Virus record (IMG/VR): IMGVR_UViG_3300037517_001919
Coordinates: 1 to 34,196 of that record
Origin: a virus
Strand: one strand, 5' to 3'
Length of the DNA stretch: 34,196 bases
The first letter of the stretch is position 1; each line of letters starts with the position of its first letter. Below are positions 1,600 to 34,196 of this stretch, in pieces. The notes beneath the pieces were generated by a model that was not told where the DNA came from, did no database searches, and saw nothing but the letters and a program-made list of their open reading frames with translations. A program made the translations under genes and the position numbers.

Positions 1600-1929
1600 A
1601 TGTTCTTTAGAGTTCATCACCCAGACAATTTAGGTTTATGGTATAATAGTAAAGGAGAGTTTACTAAAGAAGTTAGTAAATTTGAACTTTCTTGTAAAGA
1701 TCTAGAAATGGATTTTAATAATGAGTGTACTGGAGGATTCTTATCCTGTACAGATACATTAGATAACTTATTTAATTGGTTTTCACGTAAAGAGATTCAA
1801 CAACTTGAAGAGGCTGGTTATAAAGTTTGTGTATTCAATGCTAAAGAATCAAAATTCCATGATAAGTACAAACACTTCTTATTTAAAGAAGAGGGTTCTA
1901 TATTAGTCGCACAAATAAATTTAATCTGA
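1600..1929 (+). CDS. Small phage protein of unknown function (109 aa)
   Basis: The protein starts MFFRVHHPDNLGLWYN and has a middle segment LSCTDTLDNLFNWFSRKE, followed by a strand with the sequence GYKVCVFNA. It reads as a compact alpha/beta fold without signal peptide or membrane segment. No known domain is recognised, although the layout looks like a small conserved phage protein. Its TGA overlaps the ATG of the NAMPT gene (TGATG at 1927-1931), so the two are translationally coupled and it may relate to that gene. Function is not assigned. Confidence 0.7.
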   Translation: MFFRVHHPDNLGLWYNSKGEFTKEVSKFELSCKDLEMDFNNECTGGFLSCTDTLDNLFNWFSRKEIQQLEEAGYKVCVFNAKESKFHDKYKHFLFKEEGSILVAQINLI

Positions 1930-3704
1930 TGTTTACAATTAACCCATTATATTTAACAGATGGTTATAAAGTAGGTCACAAAGCTATGTTAGCTCCTGGA
2001 ACTACTAGATTATATGGTACGTGGATTCCAAGAAGTACCAAACATGCACCTAAAGGTATTACTAAGATAGTATCATTTGGTCAGCAATTAGCTTGGAAAT
2101 ATATTCATGATGTGTTTGAAGAACATTTCTTTAATCTCAATTTATCAGGTGCTTTAAAATTTGGAGAGGATATGAATAAATATCTTGGAATGGAATATAA
2201 TGATAGACATTTTTTAGAACTTCATCATTTAGGTTACTTACCTTTAAAAGTAAAAGCATTACCTGAAGGTATTGAAACTGATCCTAATATTCCTCATATG
2301 ACCTTCATTAATACAGTTGATGGATTTGCTTGGTTAACTCTTTATATGGAAACTATGGTATCTAATTTAGCATGGAAAGCTTCTACAGCAGCTACTATTG
2401 CTAAGTTATATCGAAGACAAGCTGAAGAGTGGGTAACTAAGACTGATCCTAAAAACTTATGGTTAGTAGATTATATGTGTCATGATTTCTCTGCTAGAGG
2501 ATTGAGTGGTCCATATGATATGATAAGTGTAGGATTAGGTCATGCTACATCATTCAGAGGTAGTGATACATTAGCAGCTATACCTGCTGCTAGATATTAC
2601 TATAATGAACCTAACGATGAAGTTATTATTAATTCTGTAAATGCATCAGAACACTCTGTAAGTACTACTAAGATATTTACTGTTGGTGAGAATCAAATGA
2701 TTGCTGATTGGATTAAACTATTCCCTAAAGGTATATTATCAATTGTATCTGATACATTTGATTTGTGGAAACTTATTACTGAATATTTACCAGCTAACAA
2801 GGAAGCTATTATGGCTAGAGATGGTAAATTAGTAATTAGACCTGATTCAGGTGATCCTGTTGATATTATTTGTGGTGTTTCTACTAAATATGAAGACTTA
2901 ACTAAATGGTTTCCAGAAGGAGATGTTTTACCTAAATATTTCAAAGATTCATTATTAGAAGAAGTAAAAGAAAATACACCTCACGGAGAATATGGAGTAA
3001 CAGAATATACACAAATTTATTTAGTAAGAGGTAAGCTATATAAAGCTACTATACATAATATTCAATGGAATAGATATGATAAACAATACTATTTTATAGA
3101 AATGTATGAAGAAGCTAAAATTACTGTTGAAGAATTAGATTGGAAACCTTCTGATAAAGGCGTAATTGAACTTCTTTGGGATATATTTGGTGGTACTGTT
3201 AATGAGCAGGGCTATAAAGTATTAGACCCTCATATTGGAGCAATCTATGGTGATAGTATTACACCTGATAGACAACGACAAATATATGAGAGATTAGCTG
3301 CTAAAGGCTTTGCTTCTACTAACATTGTATTAGGTGTAGGATCATTTACTTACCAATACATTACTAGAGATACATTAGGATTTGCTGCTAAAGGAGCTTG
3401 GTTTGAAGTTAAAAATGGAGATTCTTGGACAGATGATGATGGAAATATTCACAATGTTAAAAAATCATACAACATCTACAAAGATCCAGTAACTGATGAT
3501 GGTACTAAGAAATCTTTGAAGGGGTTATTACAAGTACAAGATGTTTCTTCGGCTGGAGATTATCAATATGCTGATATAAAAGTTTTTACAGAATGTACTC
3601 CTAAACAAGAAGAAGTAGGCTTACTCCAAGTAATCTATGAGAATGGTAAATTCTATAACCAAACTACCTTTAAGGAAGTTAGGGATAGATTATTAAAAAT
3701 TTAG
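1929..3704 (+). CDS. nadV: Nicotinamide phosphoribosyltransferase (NAMPT/NadV family)
   Basis: Predicted to make nicotinamide mononucleotide from nicotinamide and PRPP, the first step of NAD salvage, in the host cytoplasm. Family landmarks appear in order: TDGYKVGH at the N-terminus (D11, Y13), SARGLSG, the GHATSFRGSDT loop, ASEH with H242 at the catalytic histidine position, SDTFDLW, and RPDSGDP (R304-P310) for PRPP binding. KGVIELLWDIFGGT, GIAYGDSIT-like and GVGSFTYQ segments follow. At 591 residues it is longer than the usual 460-500. The extra length is mainly an insertion of roughly 100 residues between RPDSGDP and KGVIEL, containing an aromatic strand-rich stretch. It overlaps the gene before and lies 4 bases from the HAD gene. 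No NMN adenylyltransferase is visible in the window. Confidence 0.95.
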   Translation: MFTINPLYLTDGYKVGHKAMLAPGTTRLYGTWIPRSTKHAPKGITKIVSFGQQLAWKYIHDVFEEHFFNLNLSGALKFGEDMNKYLGMEYNDRHFLELHHLGYLPLKVKALPEGIETDPNIPHMTFINTVDGFAWLTLYMETMVSNLAWKASTAATIAKLYRRQAEEWVTKTDPKNLWLVDYMCHDFSARGLSGPYDMISVGLGHATSFRGSDTLAAIPAARYYYNEPNDEVIINSVNASEHSVSTTKIFTVGENQMIADWIKLFPKGILSIVSDTFDLWKLITEYLPANKEAIMARDGKLVIRPDSGDPVDIICGVSTKYEDLTKWFPEGDVLPKYFKDSLLEEVKENTPHGEYGVTEYTQIYLVRGKLYKATIHNIQWNRYDKQYYFIEMYEEAKITVEELDWKPSDKGVIELLWDIFGGTVNEQGYKVLDPHIGAIYGDSITPDRQRQIYERLAAKGFASTNIVLGVGSFTYQYITRDTLGFAAKGAWFEVKNGDSWTDDDGNIHNVKKSYNIYKDPVTDDGTKKSLKGLLQVQDVSSAGDYQYADIKVFTECTPKQEEVGLLQVIYENGKFYNQTTFKEVRDRLLKI

Positions 3705-4156: not shown

Positions 4157-4591
4157 ATGGCTACCATTCAAAAAACCCCAGATGATAATTGGTATTCACT
4201 GCTAATTATAATCTTTATAATGTGGTTATTAATAGCACTTACTAGCTCTTGTAATGCACAACCTTGCTTAGGTTGCGATCATAAAGATTTAGTGACTATA
4301 ACCCAACCTGAAATATTAGAAAAAGAAATTATTTCAGGTATTACTTACTTTTACATTGATACATTAGGCACAGTAAGATTGTGGGAAATGTATTACAACA
4401 ATGTAAAAAACTATTCCTTATGGTGTAAGGATAAAGAGATATATAATATCTTCCTAAACAAAATTAAAAATAGGTACGATCTCGTATCTAAAGTATTAGA
4501 CAAAGATTATGAAATCTATGTCTTTCCAGACTATCAAATCTACTGTAAAAAGGTAGAAGATTTCTGGATGTTCTTATTCATCCCAATTTAA
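4157..4591 (+). CDS. Probable membrane-anchored lipoprotein, unknown function
   Basis: I chose ATG 4157 over the in-frame TTG at 4142 because ATG is the rule here. The product has about 144 residues. A hydrophobic segment (about residues 14-29, LLIIIFIMWLLIAL) leads to TSSC with C32, followed by C37 and C40. This looks like a Bacteroidota-style lipoprotein signal with a relaxed lipobox, though an uncleaved membrane anchor is possible. The rest is a small folded domain rich in Tyr, Trp and Asp. It is followed 19 bases later by a second signal-bearing protein. Phage lipoproteins often act in superinfection exclusion; that role is inference. Confidence 0.7.
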   Translation: MATIQKTPDDNWYSLLIIIFIMWLLIALTSSCNAQPCLGCDHKDLVTITQPEILEKEIISGITYFYIDTLGTVRLWEMYYNNVKNYSLWCKDKEIYNIFLNKIKNRYDLVSKVLDKDYEIYVFPDYQIYCKKVEDFWMFLFIPI

Positions 4592-5231: not shown

Positions 5232-5534
5232 ATGGTAAAAATAGATTTACAACAAGAAGAAATAATAGAAGATTTACTAAAAAGGCAGTCGCCAGAGTAT
5301 AATAACCTTAAAGCTGCTGAGGAGTTTCAAGAACTATCATTAGCTTTAATGCAGAAGCACTTAAAGCCTAATAAGGTCAAAGATCAAGAAATTATTGATG
5401 AGATTGGTGATGCTATTATTAGATTAAATATACTATGTAAAAAGTATGATAGTACTTTAATAAATCATAGGGTTTATGAAAAGTTATCTAAATTTGCAGA
5501 GTGGTCTAAAACAAAAAGATTTGAACAAATATGA
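5232..5534 (+). CDS. MazG-like nucleotide pyrophosphohydrolase
   Basis: This protein has 100 residues and is all-helical. It shows the paired acidic motifs of the MazG/dUTPase-like all-alpha NTP pyrophosphatase superfamily: a helix with E30, E31 and E34 (AAEEFQEL), and a second helix with E57 and D60 (DEIGDAIIRL). Such enzymes bind Mg and hydrolyse (d)NTPs to the monophosphate and pyrophosphate, or degrade alarmones. It overlaps the next gene by 4 bases. Two other proteins with this kind of fold occur in the window, at 13248 and 25900, and they differ in sequence. Confidence 0.8.
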   Translation: MVKIDLQQEEIIEDLLKRQSPEYNNLKAAEEFQELSLALMQKHLKPNKVKDQEIIDEIGDAIIRLNILCKKYDSTLINHRVYEKLSKFAEWSKTKRFEQI

Positions 5535-6316
5535 GTAAAGAAGACTTATCAAAAGACTTACCAAAGATTAATATAACTTGTAGTAGAAATCCTCTACATG
5601 AGGGTAGAAGTACAGGATTAGCTTATGCCCTACTAAAGAAAATTGATGATAATACGTTTGAAACTATTAGCCCATTTTCTTGCTGTAAAGATTATCTAAA
5701 TGATGTTATTTACACTGAAAATACAGGTGTAACTATGAATGCCTGTGGTCTTAAAACATTACCTAAAACTGGTATCTTAGAGGAAGATTATATTTATATG
5801 GGATTAACCTGCTTGTATACGAAGGATAGTCCTTATAGTGAATATAACTTAATTTACAACAATAAACTCAGACGTAATCGTACTCAAGACTTAAAGTTTT
5901 TAAGAGAAAACTTACAAACTGTAATAAAACCTTTAAATGAGATTGAACGTTTAGGTGATTTAGAATTAAGTACAATTTACTCAGCTAAATGTTCTGATGA
6001 TAAATCAGAATATTACATAGTTAAACTATCTAGTTATTGGGGTAAAAGTGGTGTATTAATTTCATTAGCTTCTGGGTTATTAAGACTTGGTATGCAGTAC
6101 AATGATAATACCAATATAAAAGATTTTTGTATGGAAGAGTCTAAAAATCATAATACTGATATAGGTTTGATGGTAAAAATATTAAAACTAATCAAATTTA
6201 TAGAATTAAGTATTGTATCCGTACAACCATTCATTTATATGGAACATCAAGATTACGAACAATATAAAAGTAATCCATCCCAATATCATTCATTAGGATT
6301 TCAAAGCGTATTTTAA
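5531..6316 (+). CDS. Phage protein of unknown function (261 aa)
   Basis: Nothing in the protein is recognised with confidence. It has a Cys-containing N-terminal part (ITCSRNP, FSCCKDY, NACGLK, GLTCLY) and a C-terminal helical region ending FQSVF. The early cysteine cluster could hold a metal, but the spacing is irregular. It is coupled to the MazG-like gene by a 4-base overlap and followed 3 bases later by the next gene, so it is part of a co-translated run of small unknown genes ahead of the DNA polymerase. Confidence 0.65.
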   Translation: MSKEDLSKDLPKINITCSRNPLHEGRSTGLAYALLKKIDDNTFETISPFSCCKDYLNDVIYTENTGVTMNACGLKTLPKTGILEEDYIYMGLTCLYTKDSPYSEYNLIYNNKLRRNRTQDLKFLRENLQTVIKPLNEIERLGDLELSTIYSAKCSDDKSEYYIVKLSSYWGKSGVLISLASGLLRLGMQYNDNTNIKDFCMEESKNHNTDIGLMVKILKLIKFIELSIVSVQPFIYMEHQDYEQYKSNPSQYHSLGFQSVF

Positions 6317-13279: not shown

Positions 13280-13541
13280 AAAACAAATTAAACAAGAACT
13301 AAAACAGATAGAGAAGTTATTAATTAGAAAAAACCGTTCGTATGGAGATTCTATTAATAACCCTATACTTGTATTTGGTATCCAACAAAACAAAGATAAC
13401 TTAAATGTACAACAATTCGCTATTTGTTGTAGATTAGATGATAAGTTAGCTAGGTTAAAAAACGGAGGTATTACTAAAGACACTATGGATACCATAGATG
13501 ATATTATAGGATATCTCATAAGACTAAAAATAGCATTATGA
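13248..13541 (+). CDS. DUF1599-like (nucleotide modification associated domain 1) protein
   Basis: This 97-residue all-alpha protein has the segments KNRSYGDSINNP, CCRLDDKLARLKNG and DTIDDIIGYLIRL. They match the pattern of DUF1599, a small family related to MazG-type nucleotide pyrophosphatases and found near nucleotide-modification genes. The acidic residues in RLDD and DTIDD are the likely metal ligands. It overlaps the helicase by 32 bases and the next gene by 4 bases. The substrate is unknown: hydrolysis of an unwanted dNTP, or supply of a precursor for modified bases, are both possible. Confidence 0.7.
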   Translation: MKNLGKEPKIEKQIKQELKQIEKLLIRKNRSYGDSINNPILVFGIQQNKDNLNVQQFAICCRLDDKLARLKNGGITKDTMDTIDDIIGYLIRLKIAL

Positions 13542-13894
13542 TAAAAATTATAGATCCAGCACTAGAACCATTCTTCTTAGAAGTAGACAAATCAGGTATA
13601 ATGATTAAGGAGAATGTAGAAGACAAACATGGTAAACTTACTAAAGTAATTAATCATGTTCGTGTACATGAAATTTCACATGCTCTTGGCTTTATTTCAG
13701 ATCAGATATTCTTCAGGGAGAATATGGGTCAGGAAATGGGTATTAAAGAGTTTGTGGAAGGTAAACAAAATCAATTTAACTCTTTAATTTCAGCTTTTGA
13801 GCCTAGACAAATTACAGCTGCCACTGAAACCGAGGAAACCATTGAGGCAGAACCCCAAGAGGTTGCTGATTTACAGCAAACCGAAAACGGGTAA
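13538..13894 (+). CDS. Small protein with acidic tail, unknown function
   Basis: The protein has 118 residues. The folded part (1-85) begins with a strand MIKIIDPALEPFFLEV and includes INHVRVHEISHALGF. The HEISH string looks like HExxH, but it lies in a protein this small with no other protease feature. The C-terminal 30 residues form an acidic disordered tail (TEETIEAEPQEVADLQQTEN). The DNA of this tail (13797-13894) also encodes, in another frame, the N-terminus and P-loop of the next protein. An acidic tail next to SSB and recombinase genes may mediate protein contacts. Confidence 0.65.
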   Translation: MIKIIDPALEPFFLEVDKSGIMIKENVEDKHGKLTKVINHVRVHEISHALGFISDQIFFRENMGQEMGIKEFVEGKQNQFNSLISAFEPRQITAATETEETIEAEPQEVADLQQTENG

Positions 13895-24703: not shown

Positions 24704-25168
24704 ATGAGAAGAAGACACAAAAAACCAAAAATTAGAAACGATACAATGGTTAAAAAACCACCAAAGGCTCCTAAGGCAACTAAGGTTGATAATAGGAAAG
24801 TCAAGAATGCTAGAATAACTGTAATAGATGGTATAAAGTTTCACTCTGCATTAGAAGCTTTTACCTATAAGCTACTGTTAGAATCAGGTTTAAAATTTGC
24901 TTACGAACCCACATCATTCGAACTTATTCCCCCATTCGAATATGATGGTAAAAAAATACGTGGAGCAACTTATAAACCTGATTTTGTCGGTATAGATCAG
25001 GACTGGATAATAGAAGTTAAAGGATTTGAAACAGATGCCTTTAAAATCAGATGGAAGTTATTTAAATATATTTTATCAACTTCAGAAAAGAAATATAAAC
25101 TATTCTTACCAAGAAACCAAAAAGATGTAAGGGAAGCTATTGAGAAGATAGTAAACAAAGAAACTTAA
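24704..25168 (+). CDS. PD-(D/E)XK endonuclease (DUF1064-like)
   Basis: The protein has 154 residues. A strongly basic tail (Lys/Arg/Pro, 1-33) is followed by a compact nuclease fold: FHSALEAFTY with E51, YKPDFV with D93, and WIIEVKGF with E104 and K106, matching E...PD...ExK. The arrangement resembles DUF1064 and other small phage resolvase or endonuclease proteins. It could cleave branched DNA during replication or degrade host DNA. It sits between the amidotransferase and the FEN-type exonuclease, in a DNA metabolism run. Confidence 0.82.
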   Translation: MRRRHKKPKIRNDTMVKKPPKAPKATKVDNRKVKNARITVIDGIKFHSALEAFTYKLLLESGLKFAYEPTSFELIPPFEYDGKKIRGATYKPDFVGIDQDWIIEVKGFETDAFKIRWKLFKYILSTSEKKYKLFLPRNQKDVREAIEKIVNKET

Positions 25169-30035: not shown

Positions 30036-33000
30036 TTAATAATTATTATACCAAGGATCTTTAATTAACTGGTTATAAGCAACAGAGAAAGGCATTAAAG
30101 TTGTAGCACCTTTCATACCCACTAAGTCCCCATCTCTATTAGTATTTCCTTCTAATAAACCACTAAAGAATAATTTATCAACACCTTCACCAGTCTCTAA
30201 TAAAGCTGGTAATATTACAGTTGGTTTATTAACTAAGTTCAACATCTCTAAGATATTAAATTCAATAGTTAAGTCTCTTAACAAGTCTATACTTCTACGT
30301 TTAAGAACATCTTTGTCGTCATCATCAGCATCACCATAAGCATATATAATACCCATAGTACCAGCTACCCAAACAAATAAGTTTAAATACTGATTTAAAA
30401 CTAATTGTTTTTGTTCTGGTGATAATGTAGACCATACAGTAACAGCCTCTTTAGAATCGTTTAGCATAGCTTTATTTAAGTAAAGTCCTCTCATCATCAT
30501 CTTATAACCTCTTAAGATAACATCATTATAAGCAACACTAGCAGCTAACAAGGACATACCTTTATCTAATTGAGCTTCCCATCTTAATACTGGATTACCA
30601 TCAACTTCTATAGGCTTACCACTGTCATGATCTAATACTTCTATATACTTACCAAGTGAGGCATTTTCAAACTCTCCTTGGAAAGCCATCTCAAACTTAT
30701 TAGGTATAAACTTCTTAAACTGTAAGAACATAGCTGTGAAGGCATTAGATTCCATCTTACGTTTCATTTCAGGATCATATTCACCTACAATTCTAGCCAT
30801 AATCTTCTTGAATTTTAAAAGCTCTTGAGCTGTCATTCCACTAATAACTTCACCGTTTTCAGTTACACCTCTAGTACCACCTTCCCAAACCAACTGACCA
30901 TCTTTTACATTGTAAGCATCCCACATATTGGTTTCACCATTAGCAGTTTTAATTTTCTTATTCTTTAATATACTAATAAAGATTAATGAGTTAGCTAAAG
31001 AATCACCTAAACCATAAGTCATATAAAGCCATCTATCATCAACAGCTTTATTTCTAGCCATAGTTAACATTTGTTTACTATTAGCACTAATGAACTGCTG
31101 TTGCTTTATATTATATATATCATCAAATAAGGTAAGCTTATCAACTTTACCTGTAAGTTTATTATATAAGTGTTGGAAGTATATACCATAAGCTTGGGTA
31201 AGTGTAGATAAAGACCAGTTGATGTCATCCTCTTCTATACCATCTATACGTTTAGCTAAACTACCTTTAACAGCATCTTTAACAGTATTTAACTGGTTTA
31301 ATACTAAGTTAACAGTAGCACCTAATGTAGAGAATGAGAGCTTAGCCATTGTAGCTAATCCCATAAGGCTTCTTAATGCCCTTTCTCCAGATACTTCTAT
31401 ACCTAATACTTTCTTACGTTTATGTATGTTTGAAGCTAAGTTATTTTCTTCTTCATTATAAACTTCATGTAAGTTATTATCAATATAAGATCTTAAGAAA
31501 TTAGCAGAGTTTTTCATAGCACCTATCTTAGAACCACCTGATTCAAATATAGTAGCTAAACTTAAACCATAAGCAGATACATTATCATAGAATCTTTTAT
31601 TTATCATGTTCTTAGCAAACAGTTTCATGATTAATTCTGTATGCATAGTTTGATTAGGACTATGTGCATTATAGTTATTAATATACTTTAATGGTACACC
31701 AGCTCTACGTAAACCAAAGGTATCAGCAGGCTTAGCACTGTAAGCTGTTACTTTATGTAAAGCCCAGTTTCCTAAAGTATTAATAATCTCCTTAGTTTCA
31801 GTAATACTATACTCTCCTGTAAGCTTAGGTAATCTTGGTGTGAAGTCTTCAGTGTAAACAAAATACTTACCAAGCTCAGCTTCCCACTTCTCAACAGGTT
31901 CCATATCTAAATACATATCTATTTTAGCTTGGTACTTAGCAGCAAGTTCTTGTTTAGTGAATAGTCCTATCAATAAGTCTGAATCAACATTATCTAACTT
32001 ATTCTTATAATACTTTAAACCTCTAGTAGTTGATAATGTGGAGAATAACATATCTCTAATACTATCTCTATAGAATACATTATACTTCTTCTGAGCAGTA
32101 GATAATAAAGCCCAATCAGTACTAGTTTCAGTTTTAATAGTCATACCATCCCCTTCAGATGTATCCCACATAAATTTAAATGCTTTCTCATAGTTAAGCA
32201 TATTTAAACCTATCTTACCACCAATCATAGATAAGAAGTTATTACCATAGTATTCTTTTAATACATCTTTAAGTAAAGAGTCAGACTCTCTAAATAACTT
32301 ACTTCTAGTTTCTGATATAAGTTGTAATGCCCTAGTCCGAAGCTTCATGAAAGTCTTCAAGAGCGGATTCTTAACATTAAATCCTACTGAAGTATAGGTT
32401 TCTTTTATATCTATATCAGAATTAACATCTGTCATAGATCCAAATTCAGCACCTTCTAATTCAGATATCTGTAATATTAATGACTCTAACTGCTTTTTAA
32501 CTAGTGGGTTAGAATTAATATAAGCATCAGTTAATGGTTGCTTATCCTTACCTCCAGATCTTTGTAGAGTATCTAATTGCTCATATAATCTTTGTAATAC
32601 AATTTCTTTAGCTGCGAATACTGAAGCTGCTCCTTTCTTTAACTCTTCATTAATACGATCAGATACATTAGTAGATATAGCTACATATTCCTTATGATTT
32701 AACAGATAACTATTAGTCTTAATAAAGTCATTAGGATTATGTGTAAAGTAACTAGCTAAGTTTAATAATACAGAGGACCTATCAACTTCTAATAAAGCTG
32801 GTGTAGTAGTATGTTTATTTAAATTAACTAATGTTATATTTCTAAATCTAGCATTAGGATATAATGATTTAACAAGTAAAGCATAAGTACCTAACTGCAT
32901 TTGATAGTTATTAGTAGAATTAAATAACATACCAGTACGCTCAGCATACTTCATTTCACCGAAATCTTCATTAGGGTTAAATGATTTACCTGTCTTAAAG

Positions 33001-34196
33001 TCAATAATTGAGAAGGTACCATCAGCATGCTCTATTAACATATCTATTGTTCCACCCAAGTTTAACTGTTCATTGTATACTAAGAACTCAGAATGTATCT
33101 TATCAGTAGGTTGTATATTCAACCTTTCCATAAGGGCAGTTAAATAAGTATCATTACCCTCAATCCAATTGAAGTCAGAATCTTTACCACCTAAAGTTAT
33201 ATATTGTTGTAGTAAATCAGCTTTCTCTTGACCAAACTTTTGAAACTGTGGATCACTATTACCTACAGTATACATCTGTATAATCTTATGTATAATTTTA
33301 CCAGTTATTCTACTACGCTCACCAATCTTAGTAAAGTAGTCTAATAACTCTTCATAAGTAACTAGTGTACCAGTCCCATCTGGATGTTGTACAGGCCTAC
33401 CTAATAAGGTATTTACCTTACCATAGTACTTCTTAGCCATTACCTCAGCTTGAGTTAACTTCCTATTGTAACTTAAAAAGTTACCTAAGAAAGTACTCAC
33501 ACGATCTAATACTACAGATCTACCAGTAGAAGATACTACAGTATATCCTGTATCTCCTTCAATACCAGTCTGTTTAGTAATAGTGTAGTTATTATTTAAG
33601 TACCTTAACTCAGATGTCCCTTGAACATTACTAATGGTATCCGAGAACTCAGGACCATTTAACATCAGTTCAGCTAATTTAGAGATACTTGTTTGAGGAT
33701 CTAACTCAGTAATATTGGTAGGTTTATATAATCCTATTACACGCATTATAGCTTGATATACGCGCTTTACAGCACTTATAAGGGTATTAGTCCAACCAGA
33801 GGTTAATCCTACGCCATATCGTCCTATAGCGGTTACTATAGCCTCGTCTATCTGATCTTCTAATGAGAGGTCAGGATAGCTAAGTTTAATCTCAGCTAAG
33901 ATAGGACTATCCAGTATATTACGTTTTAAGTTATCATATAGAAGCTTGTTCTTAGACTTAATCATTATTAATAGTCCGTGACCAAACTCGTGTATAGGAG
34001 TTTCTAAACTATACTTATTAGAGTTTATGTATACCTTACCATTATGGAAGAATCCATATATATCAGGATTTAAACCTAACGACTTAACTAACTCACTATT
34101 AGTAAAGTCTAATACCTCATACTCAAACTTCAGTTTAGAAGCTAATTTACTAAGAAGTTTATTAACTACTCTAGAACCAACTACCTTATTACTATA
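30036..34196 (-). CDS. Giant multidomain phage protein with zincin and RecB-like nuclease motifs (5' end outside window)
   Basis: The frame stays open to the right edge: 77 more codons lie beyond the first internal ATG at 33965, so at least 1386 residues are visible and the N-terminus is missing. In order on the minus strand: a zincin site TPIHEFGHGLL (HEFGH at 33978-33992) followed by DEAIVTAIGRYG with a possible third ligand; a RecB/Cas4-type nuclease with GKIIHKIIQMY, GGTIDM, IIDFKTGK (DFK at 32994-33002) and QMQLGTYALL; a long helical region; and a hydrophobic stretch near 30340-30390 followed by an acidic GDADDDDKD. Such polyvalent proteins in crAss-like and related phages are thought to be packaged and ejected into the host. 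That role is inference. Confidence 0.85.
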   Translation of the reverse strand, partial: YSNKVVGSRVVNKLLSKLASKLKFEYEVLDFTNSELVKSLGLNPDIYGFFHNGKVYINSNKYSLETPIHEFGHGLLIMIKSKNKLLYDNLKRNILDSPILAEIKLSYPDLSLEDQIDEAIVTAIGRYGVGLTSGWTNTLISAVKRVYQAIMRVIGLYKPTNITELDPQTSISKLAELMLNGPEFSDTISNVQGTSELRYLNNNYTITKQTGIEGDTGYTVVSSTGRSVVLDRVSTFLGNFLSYNRKLTQAEVMAKKYYGKVNTLLGRPVQHPDGTGTLVTYEELLDYFTKIGERSRITGKIIHKIIQMYTVGNSDPQFQKFGQEKADLLQQYITLGGKDSDFNWIEGNDTYLTALMERLNIQPTDKIHSEFLVYNEQLNLGGTIDMLIEHADGTFSIIDFKTGKSFNPNEDFGEMKYAERTGMLFNSTNNYQMQLGTYALLVKSLYPNARFRNITLVNLNKHTTTPALLEVDRSSVLLNLASYFTHNPNDFIKTNSYLLNHKEYVAISTNVSDRINEELKKGAASVFAAKEIVLQRLYEQLDTLQRSGGKDKQPLTDAYINSNPLVKKQLESLILQISELEGAEFGSMTDVNSDIDIKETYTSVGFNVKNPLLKTFMKLRTRALQLISETRSKLFRESDSLLKDVLKEYYGNNFLSMIGGKIGLNMLNYEKAFKFMWDTSEGDGMTIKTETSTDWALLSTAQKKYNVFYRDSIRDMLFSTLSTTRGLKYYKNKLDNVDSDLLIGLFTKQELAAKYQAKIDMYLDMEPVEKWEAELGKYFVYTEDFTPRLPKLTGEYSITETKEIINTLGNWALHKVTAYSAKPADTFGLRRAGVPLKYINNYNAHSPNQTMHTELIMKLFAKNMINKRFYDNVSAYGLSLATIFESGGSKIGAMKNSANFLRSYIDNNLHEVYNEEENNLASNIHKRKKVLGIEVSGERALRSLMGLATMAKLSFSTLGATVNLVLNQLNTVKDAVKGSLAKRIDGIEEDDINWSLSTLTQAYGIYFQHLYNKLTGKVDKLTLFDDIYNIKQQQFISANSKQMLTMARNKAVDDRWLYMTYGLGDSLANSLIFISILKNKKIKTANGETNMWDAYNVKDGQLVWEGGTRGVTENGEVISGMTAQELLKFKKIMARIVGEYDPEMKRKMESNAFTAMFLQFKKFIPNKFEMAFQGEFENASLGKYIEVLDHDSGKPIEVDGNPVLRWEAQLDKGMSLLAASVAYNDVILRGYKMMMRGLYLNKAMLNDSKEAVTVWSTLSPEQKQLVLNQYLNLFVWVAGTMGIIYAYGDADDDDKDVLKRRSIDLLRDLTIEFNILEMLNLVNKPTVILPALLETGEGVDKLFFSGLLEGNTNRDGDLVGMKGATTLMPFSVAYNQLIKDPWYNNY

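Follow-up and report, generated by a model that had tools for sequence, protein, structure and literature searches.

A giant crAss-like phage protein with predicted RNA polymerase, zincin and nuclease domains and a linker-bounded cassette slot

The window analysed here is the IMG/VR virus record IMGVR_UViG_3300037517_001919 over its whole length of 34,196 bases. The open reading frame (ORF) at its right end (30036..34196, minus strand) is, quite probably, the C-terminal fifth of a crAss-like virion-cargo protein of about 6,550 residues with exchangeable cassettes. In many related phages, unrelated payload domains are enclosed by linkers that are nearly identical and show DNA conservation at synonymous sites, and near-identical payload DNA recurs in unrelated giants. 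We lean, less firmly, towards the explanation that in environmental crAss-like phages a DNA-conserved linker pair brackets interchangeable domains of virion RNA polymerase (RNAP) proteins, which would be swapped in frame by recombination at the linkers and injected as effectors. The combination of a zincin and a nuclease, to which the original prediction had pointed, is itself real and of a known kind.

The giant protein and its domains

The frame runs from 34196 to 30036 (1,386 codons), ends with a stop at 30036 and is open at the right edge of the window, where the record ends as well; its 5' part is found in contigs L002 and L006. It had been predicted to continue past its first visible ATG (33965), and so it does: the HEFGH motif lies upstream of that ATG, and the frame goes on into L002 (IMGVR 3300035662_001474), which comes from the same phage, being 100% identical to the window contig over 14,157 bp. 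Since base 34196 falls outside this match, the first residue of the window frame, Y, is read as D in L002. The frame has 4,718 codons in L002 and is still open there. The start ATG is present in two further contigs, L006 and L007, 1,832 codons upstream of the L002 frame; these differ from L002 by nine and eight mismatches, respectively, without gaps, over about 9 kb. Summed from overlapping IMG/VR contigs, by adding the lengths and not by joining the sequences, the giant has about 6,550 residues with no stop in frame. In the full-length numbering used below, P0003 provides residues 1-1832, and 1832 is added to the residue number of P0002 beyond that.

The size of the giant is not unique, as open frames around the crass-type RNAP reach 6,681 residues (G045, the contig behind L084) and 6,253 residues (G011, behind L032) in other linker contigs. 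A review gives the crAss RNAP gene as up to ~6000 aa long (PMC10136315; this and the other papers cited here are represented by parts of their texts). In L008, a different crass-like contig, the giant is divided between one ORF of 2,583 residues and another of at least 2,612.

From the N- to the C-terminus, the protein consists of a helical N-terminal part, a superfamily 1 (SF1) helicase of the RecD/Dda-like kind, a slot with two cassettes (about 2284-2526), zincin-1 (HEAFH at 2644), a DxDxD RNAP (DFDVD at 4171), zincin-2 (HEFGH at 5233) and a PD-(D/E)XK domain (5459-5613). This order, the active-site motifs and the family identity of the protein are established. Several unrelated activities (helicase, RNAP, zincins, nuclease) are thus predicted in one chain, which is one mark of a polyvalent protein (Iyer et al. 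2017); the other, delivery together with the DNA, is likely here from the virion proteomics of crAss001. The helicase (L006:7970-9550, the N-terminal third of the giant) matches AAA_30 (E 1.6e-13) and the Dda-like phrog_325 (E 1e-22).

The original prediction suggested looking to the right of the window for the N-terminus and a possible RNAP, and both are there, the former as the ATG of L006 and L007 and the latter as the crAss-type virion RNAP motif DFDVD (residue 2339 of P0002). A profile of 20 RNAP rows of our choice, the giant included, matches 6vr4 with E 1.1e-45, the next best match having E 0.0056. This structure is the virion RNAP gp66 of phi14:2 (Drobysheva et al. 2021; PMC10770324, PMC10136315). 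The DxDxD motif and the surrounding ~336 profile positions align with gp66; however, the 6vr4 chain has 2,194 residues, whereas the RNAP of the giant lies within a chain of ~6,550 residues together with a helicase, two zincins, a nuclease and cassettes. Residues R225, I226, P227, G261, D263, F264, D265 and D267 are invariant in the RNAP alignment, the DxDxD motif being flanked by DPBB sequence. In a tblastn search, the giant also has a match of 40.8% over 101 residues (E 2e-8) to the "putative RNAP" in a record of crAssphage.

Zincin-2 occupies residues 1-160 of the window frame (33717..34196, minus strand). The predicted HEFGH, an HExxH motif in the context TPIHEFGHGLL, is indeed found at 33978..33992 (minus strand), and a homologous region exists in other giant ORFs. 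Residues G48, H69, E70, H73 and E118 do not vary in 19 of 19 aligned rows, chosen by us; Glu118 (33843..33845, minus strand), in helix 112-128 of the model, is the candidate third zinc ligand. The AlphaFold2 model of the domain, with a mean predicted local distance difference test score (pLDDT) of 83.9, resembles Pro-Pro endopeptidases and other M34-type peptidases. The best VIA-align result is PPEP-2 (Z 8.7, root-mean-square deviation 3.8, 135 residues aligned). Pfam and PHROGs searches of the giant yielded no zincin match; the case for the zincin is built on conservation and the model. A search of PDB with the zincin profile (hmmsearch) produced weak matches only, the best (E 0.0033) to FtsH. 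The Pfam names collected by the zincin rows (the 25 listed of 42 families), with Peptidase_M41 among them in two of 19 members, are at chance level and were disregarded; a further alignment of 22 rows of our choice appeared to be mis-aligned and was left out of the fold assignment.

The PD-(D/E)XK domain (32850..33314, minus strand; residues 295-449), a predicted RecB/Cas4-like exonuclease, matches PDDEXK_1 (PF12705) with 37.6 bits against a cutoff of 22 (E 3e-9) and the exonuclease family phrog_298 with E 8.4e-13. These matches agree with the nuclease signature noticed at first sight about 330 residues past HEFGH, namely GGTIDM (33039..33056, minus strand), which is the first acidic motif and aligns with (A/G)G(E/T/A)xD in relatives, and DFKTG (32988..33002, minus strand), the DxK motif. 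The aspartate and DxK are retained in most aligned relatives. The window piece around the nuclease gave weak tblastn matches only, the best listed having E 0.02. Hence a zincin motif and a RecB-type nuclease do reside in one very large protein with a continuous frame; no stop or start intervenes between the two, and the catalytic residues are kept in homologs.

The remaining ~900 residues (30036..32756, minus strand) have no family match in Pfam or PHROGs, and their relatives among the fetched loci come from the same phage only. As the C-terminal 1,386 residues have no tblastn match among deposited phages at 1e-5, relatives were taken from metagenome contigs. An acidic C-terminus after a hydrophobic stretch, also predicted, is not seen: the last 160 residues contain 20 D+E and 16 K+R, and in both pieces of the giant no 19-residue window exceeds a mean hydropathy of 1.6. 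All that is seen of it is a local DADDDDKD following a mildly hydrophobic stretch.

By homology of the structural proteins and the order of the gene blocks, the phage belongs with the Crassvirales. The contig overlapping the start of the giant (G003) encodes a major capsid protein (MCP; phrog_11589, E 3e-84), a portal protein (phrog_6547, E 5.5e-127) and a terminase large subunit (TerL; phrog_6681, E 4.3e-124). The MCP matches 121 deposited phage records in tblastn, the best rows being crAss-like with ~31% identity over 98-99% of the query. The giant ORF lies at the end of the structural block, and the window's replication genes, on the other strand, run towards it (family-A DNA polymerase, DnaB-like helicase, 5'-3' exonuclease, ribonucleotide reductase); this is the arrangement known in Crassvirales.

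Zincin-1 is found in many crass-like giants. Its domain from locus L073 matches 23 deposited phage records in tblastn, and HEAFH is present in the matched part of all four records opened ("tikkala", cr4_1, cr1_1, cr112_1); cr4_1 has an in-frame stop near the HEAFH stretch under the standard code. In the Kehishuvirus "tikkala", whose host is Bacteroides cellulosilyticus, the match falls in a 2,310-residue "RNA-polymerase subunit" (WEU69768.1), and the same chain matches the exonuclease family phrog_298 (E 1.5e-7). Judging by these matches, the pairing of a zincin with a nuclease is not new, since a cultured phage of the crAss001 genus has both in one RNAP subunit. The RNAP-associated proteins gp47, gp49 and gp50 of crAss001 were detected in virions by mass spectrometry (PMC10172136). 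The length of WEU69768.1 fits gp47 (262.5 kDa), with which, from size and annotation, it may be identified. Thus the giant is like the PhiCrAss001 cargo in that a genus relative has a nuclease and a HEAFH zincin in one chain, but what is several proteins there is one chain here, and the order differs: the nuclease precedes the zincin in WEU69768.1, whereas zincin-2 precedes the nuclease in the giant.

Linker-bounded cassettes

The upstream slot contains in-frame cassettes between linkers (KADIERRRQEE ... INAKYDAELAALE). The giant has two of them in tandem (L002:1319-2101 and L006:11318-12100). A search with the upstream part of the giant retrieved L008 and a further contig, L009. The second cassette of the giant shares with L008/L009 a block of 445 bp at 100% DNA identity. 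The block begins shortly ahead of KADIEKRRQE and closes with the final base of YDAELAALE; beyond it, the DNA similarity is confined to linker copies (29 and 37 bp).

Degenerate patterns of the two linker ends, run against viral contigs, matched 99 and 56 stretches. Altogether, 114 cassettes were identified in 107 of 144 searched loci, 97 of them remaining without exact copies, and the linker motifs have 122 and 136 matches in forward ORFs as opposed to 5 and 6 in reversed ORFs. All 20 distinct pairs of DNA patterns, each pattern matched independently, have a spacing that is a multiple of three, with no stop between them and none on opposite strands. Among the 97 cassettes, 87 have payloads of at least 30 residues, shorter ones being dropped, and these payloads form 61 families by sequence similarity. 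Of 93 ORFs with a cassette, 35 also have a zincin-1 downstream of it, 58-283 residues away in 30 cases, many loci being cut short. Payloads of L038, L088 and L139 contain HExxH motifs inside the cassettes; zincins thus seem to be cassette contents themselves.

Fifty of the longer linker contigs were chosen for gene content. The crass-type RNAP is present in 44 of them. The TerL family phrog_6681 is found in 31, among them all six without the polymerase, and in none of 14 control genomes. A composite linker query had no match in 50,697 phage records at E <= 1, hence gut crass phages may lack the cassette system; payload 2 also had no match among deposited phage records at 0.01. In bacterial genomes the 3' linker pattern gave 13 stretches, several apparently by chance (Nocardioides, Rhodoferax). 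A contig binned as a Nitrososphaeraceae archaeon (L146, QCWD01000113.1) has two linker cassettes and a payload 89.6% identical to that of phage locus L099; it is probably a mis-binned phage contig.

The evidence for exchange is as follows. In fourteen pairs of payloads the DNA is 85% identical or more over the greater part of the length, and seven of these pairs have no detectable similarity in the flanks, although two of the seven represent one event and two others lack a part of the flank in the fetched loci. Both flanks are seen and are unrelated in the pair formed by our phage and the L008 type, as well as in L044/L061, L035/L121 and L099/L146. The other seven pairs have a similar flank, five of them being near-copies of one phage. 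Between giants with unrelated flanks the payload DNA is 89-100% identical, and in most pairs examined the identity block ends within a few bases of the linkers (-3 and +1 in L035/L121, -17 and 0 in L065/L096); the block of L099/L146 reaches 57 bases past the linker. The reverse situation is provided by L026/L027, where unrelated payloads occupy the same slot and the flanks are 83.8% and 84.9% identical over ~600 bp each.

The linkers are conserved at the DNA level as well. Codon counts were made on 93 cassettes, four from bacterial-genome loci being left out, with the relatedness of the phages uncorrected and catalytic motifs serving as the control. Rare codons dominate at fixed linker positions: CTA in 58 of 92 (background 0.11), ATC in 44 of 81 (0.11) and GCA in 76 of 93 (0.33). 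The mean codon homozygosity of the two linkers is 0.80 and 0.74, compared to the expected 0.55 and 0.51, while the RNAP motif (0.58 observed and expected, n=26) and the zincin motif (0.59 and 0.59, n=33) are at expectation; the third control, RIPTQ (n=12), has 0.63 with 0.50 expected. Linker codons are therefore conserved beyond codon usage, unlike the catalytic motifs of the same ORFs.

Some other descriptions of the cassettes were considered. None of the eight Pfam families matched by the 61 payloads at E <= 0.01 is a Hint family, the kind of splicing domain that an intein would contain. Polymorphic toxins do not fit, as the cassettes are internal, not C-terminal, and the frame runs on for thousands of residues. 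A resemblance of the payloads of L033, L105 and L032 to ADP-ribosyltransferases was not supported.

Proposed mechanism and alternative explanations

The giant may work as follows. Most likely it is carried in the phage head and leaves with the genome; family membership makes both packaging and delivery likely, given the virion proteomics of crAss001. The protein would pass through the tail as a thread, which has been proposed for the crAss001 cargo, and then refold in the host, where its RNAP would start early transcription, its helicase and nuclease would act on entering or host DNA, and one or both zincins, once inside, could cleave either the giant or targets of the host. The cassettes would be early effectors that phages exchange through recombination at the linkers. 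The simplest view is that the linkers supply recombination with a short stretch of homology and act as joints that tolerate any payload; they might also be protease sites, but this is not favoured where zincin-1 has HExxE.

Several observations weigh against this explanation. The cassettes are not part of the window itself, and the relatives that bear linkers are represented by metagenome contigs. The structure model of the two cassettes of the giant is poor (pLDDT 44.6) and unusable, so that the helix-hairpin and acetyltransferase-like look of the linkers and payload 2 is an impression only; in Pfam it finds no support beyond DUF4318 with E 0.061. The eight Pfam families matched by the 61 payloads have one member each, and all these matches are weak. 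The zincin-2 model has no Foldseek match in PDB at E <= 0.001, and, the best E being just 0.078, the fold assignment is moderate. The PD-(D/E)XK motif is lost in L033/L089. Finally, in a group of zincin-1 relatives the second histidine is replaced by glutamate (HExxE, e.g. HEIFE and HEVFE), suggesting loss of activity there; the site is probably inactive or altered in its metal binding. As HExxE proteins keep the linkers, the latter are not simply cleavage sites of zincin-1, and that candidate function is weakened. HExxE is carried by L034, L140, L017, L023, L050, L142 and others.

The fate of the chain after entry admits two accounts. The original prediction had suggested a packaged multi-effector that is cut apart or delivered into the host. 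If it is cut apart, the zincins would free the RNAP, the nuclease and the payloads as separate units after entry. We consider this possible, though tentative. It has been proposed by Iyer et al. for zincin-bearing polyvalent proteins (PMC5512222), and the giant of L008, split into two ORFs, demonstrates that one continuous chain is not needed; on the other hand, zincin-1 looks inactive in the HExxE relatives. Alternatively, the zincins might act as early anti-host or anti-defence effectors upon host proteins and not upon the giant itself. This agrees with the secreted or injected nature of the M34-kind fold relatives in PDB, and with the HExxH motifs in the three cassette payloads. However, zincin-1 has a recurrent place in RNAP giants, which would also suit a structural or processing role, and we regard exclusive action on the host as rather unlikely.

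Another explanation dispenses with exchange: the protein would be an ordinary crAss-like RNAP cargo with a fixed zincin and nuclease, and the variable stretch would be merely fast-evolving next to an old shared linker. The cultured Kehishuvirus RNAP subunit already has both a zincin and PD-(D/E)XK, and the flanks of many cassette pairs are homologous at the protein level, that is, the slot is homologous. What this account does not explain is nearly identical payload DNA amid unrelated flanks in blocks that end at the linkers, unrelated payloads between flanks of 84% identity, and linker codons more conserved than the catalytic motifs of the same ORFs. We thus consider it improbable, and prefer exchange at the linkers. 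An assembly error behind the giant frame or the shared 445-bp block is very improbable, for although the contigs are metagenome assemblies and repeats such as the linkers can mislead assemblers, the three contigs that carry our backbone, and likewise the two that carry the other one, agree (nearly) base for base over kilobases, and the linkers recur in most searched loci, always in frame where spacing was assessed (20 of 20).

Relation to known systems and other genes

Polymorphic toxins combine a variable module with a conserved boundary beside it, and Rickettsia palindromic elements are in-frame mobile stretches. The cassettes differ from both, as the payload is internal, has linkers on both sides and varies in sequence. 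The RNAP of phage N4 differs from that of the giant in being a single-subunit T7-like enzyme. Like the N4-like virion RNAPs and polyvalent proteins (PMC5512222), the giant joins an RNAP to zincins and seems to be a multidomain early effector; unlike them, it appears to undergo linker-bounded exchange, which is undescribed in the parts of that paper available here.

Giant proteins of the transcription block of crass-like phages (PMC7886860, PMC10136315) share with the present one the large size and a PDDEXK domain. The zincins and linker cassettes are unmentioned in these descriptions, as far as the texts are represented here, and the word "protease" is absent from the main texts of PMC7886860, PMC10172136 and PMC10136315. 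In P23-45 gp96 (5,002 residues; PMC10770324), a virion RNAP with DFDGD is similarly fused in a giant virion protein with a metallopeptidase domain, but that protein is the tail tape measure of a long-tailed Thermus phage, and a nuclease or cassettes are unmentioned in the part of the source used. Exchange of protein fragments between phages is an ongoing process, described as domain mosaicism (PMC10684548). What sets the giants with a virion RNAP apart is that their probable exchange takes place between two constant linkers conserved at the DNA level; the words "linker", "ejection" and "crAss" are absent from the main text of that paper. The linker strings were not found in the literature searched, and none of the matches listed for crAss phages and zincins concerned crAss phages by title. 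As far as these searches show, the cassette system is undescribed in the literature covered.

Crass-like phages are very abundant, and what they inject besides the RNAP is largely obscure. The giant links predicted polymerase, helicase, nuclease and two protease activities in one chain, and its relatives show a standard slot, where the contents change and the linkers stay. If the cassettes are early effectors, the linkers provide a handle for listing many injected proteins from sequence alone. If the exchange is true, it would also be a clear example of how recombination sites retained within a reading frame make a protein modular.

Several other genes were noticed. In G049, the contig behind L094, the TerL match contains five TGA codons, which suggests TGA recoding or decay. 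In the window, the segment 17729-24699 contains a cluster of an ATP-grasp-like gene (just under the cutoff), a COOH-NH2 ligase (PF14395), a glutamine amidotransferase (PF13522) and an amidoligase (PF12224), perhaps a set for peptide or surface modification. A gene of the nicotinate/nicotinamide phosphoribosyltransferase family (1929-3704; PF04095, E 2.8e-28) could possibly serve NAD salvage against an NAD-depleting defence. A small ORF at 13538-13894 contains VRVHEISHALG, its match to Zincin_1 being weak and below the cutoff (E 0.011). Finally, the replication block contains a second nuclease-like gene (24704-25168; DUF1064, E 5e-11).

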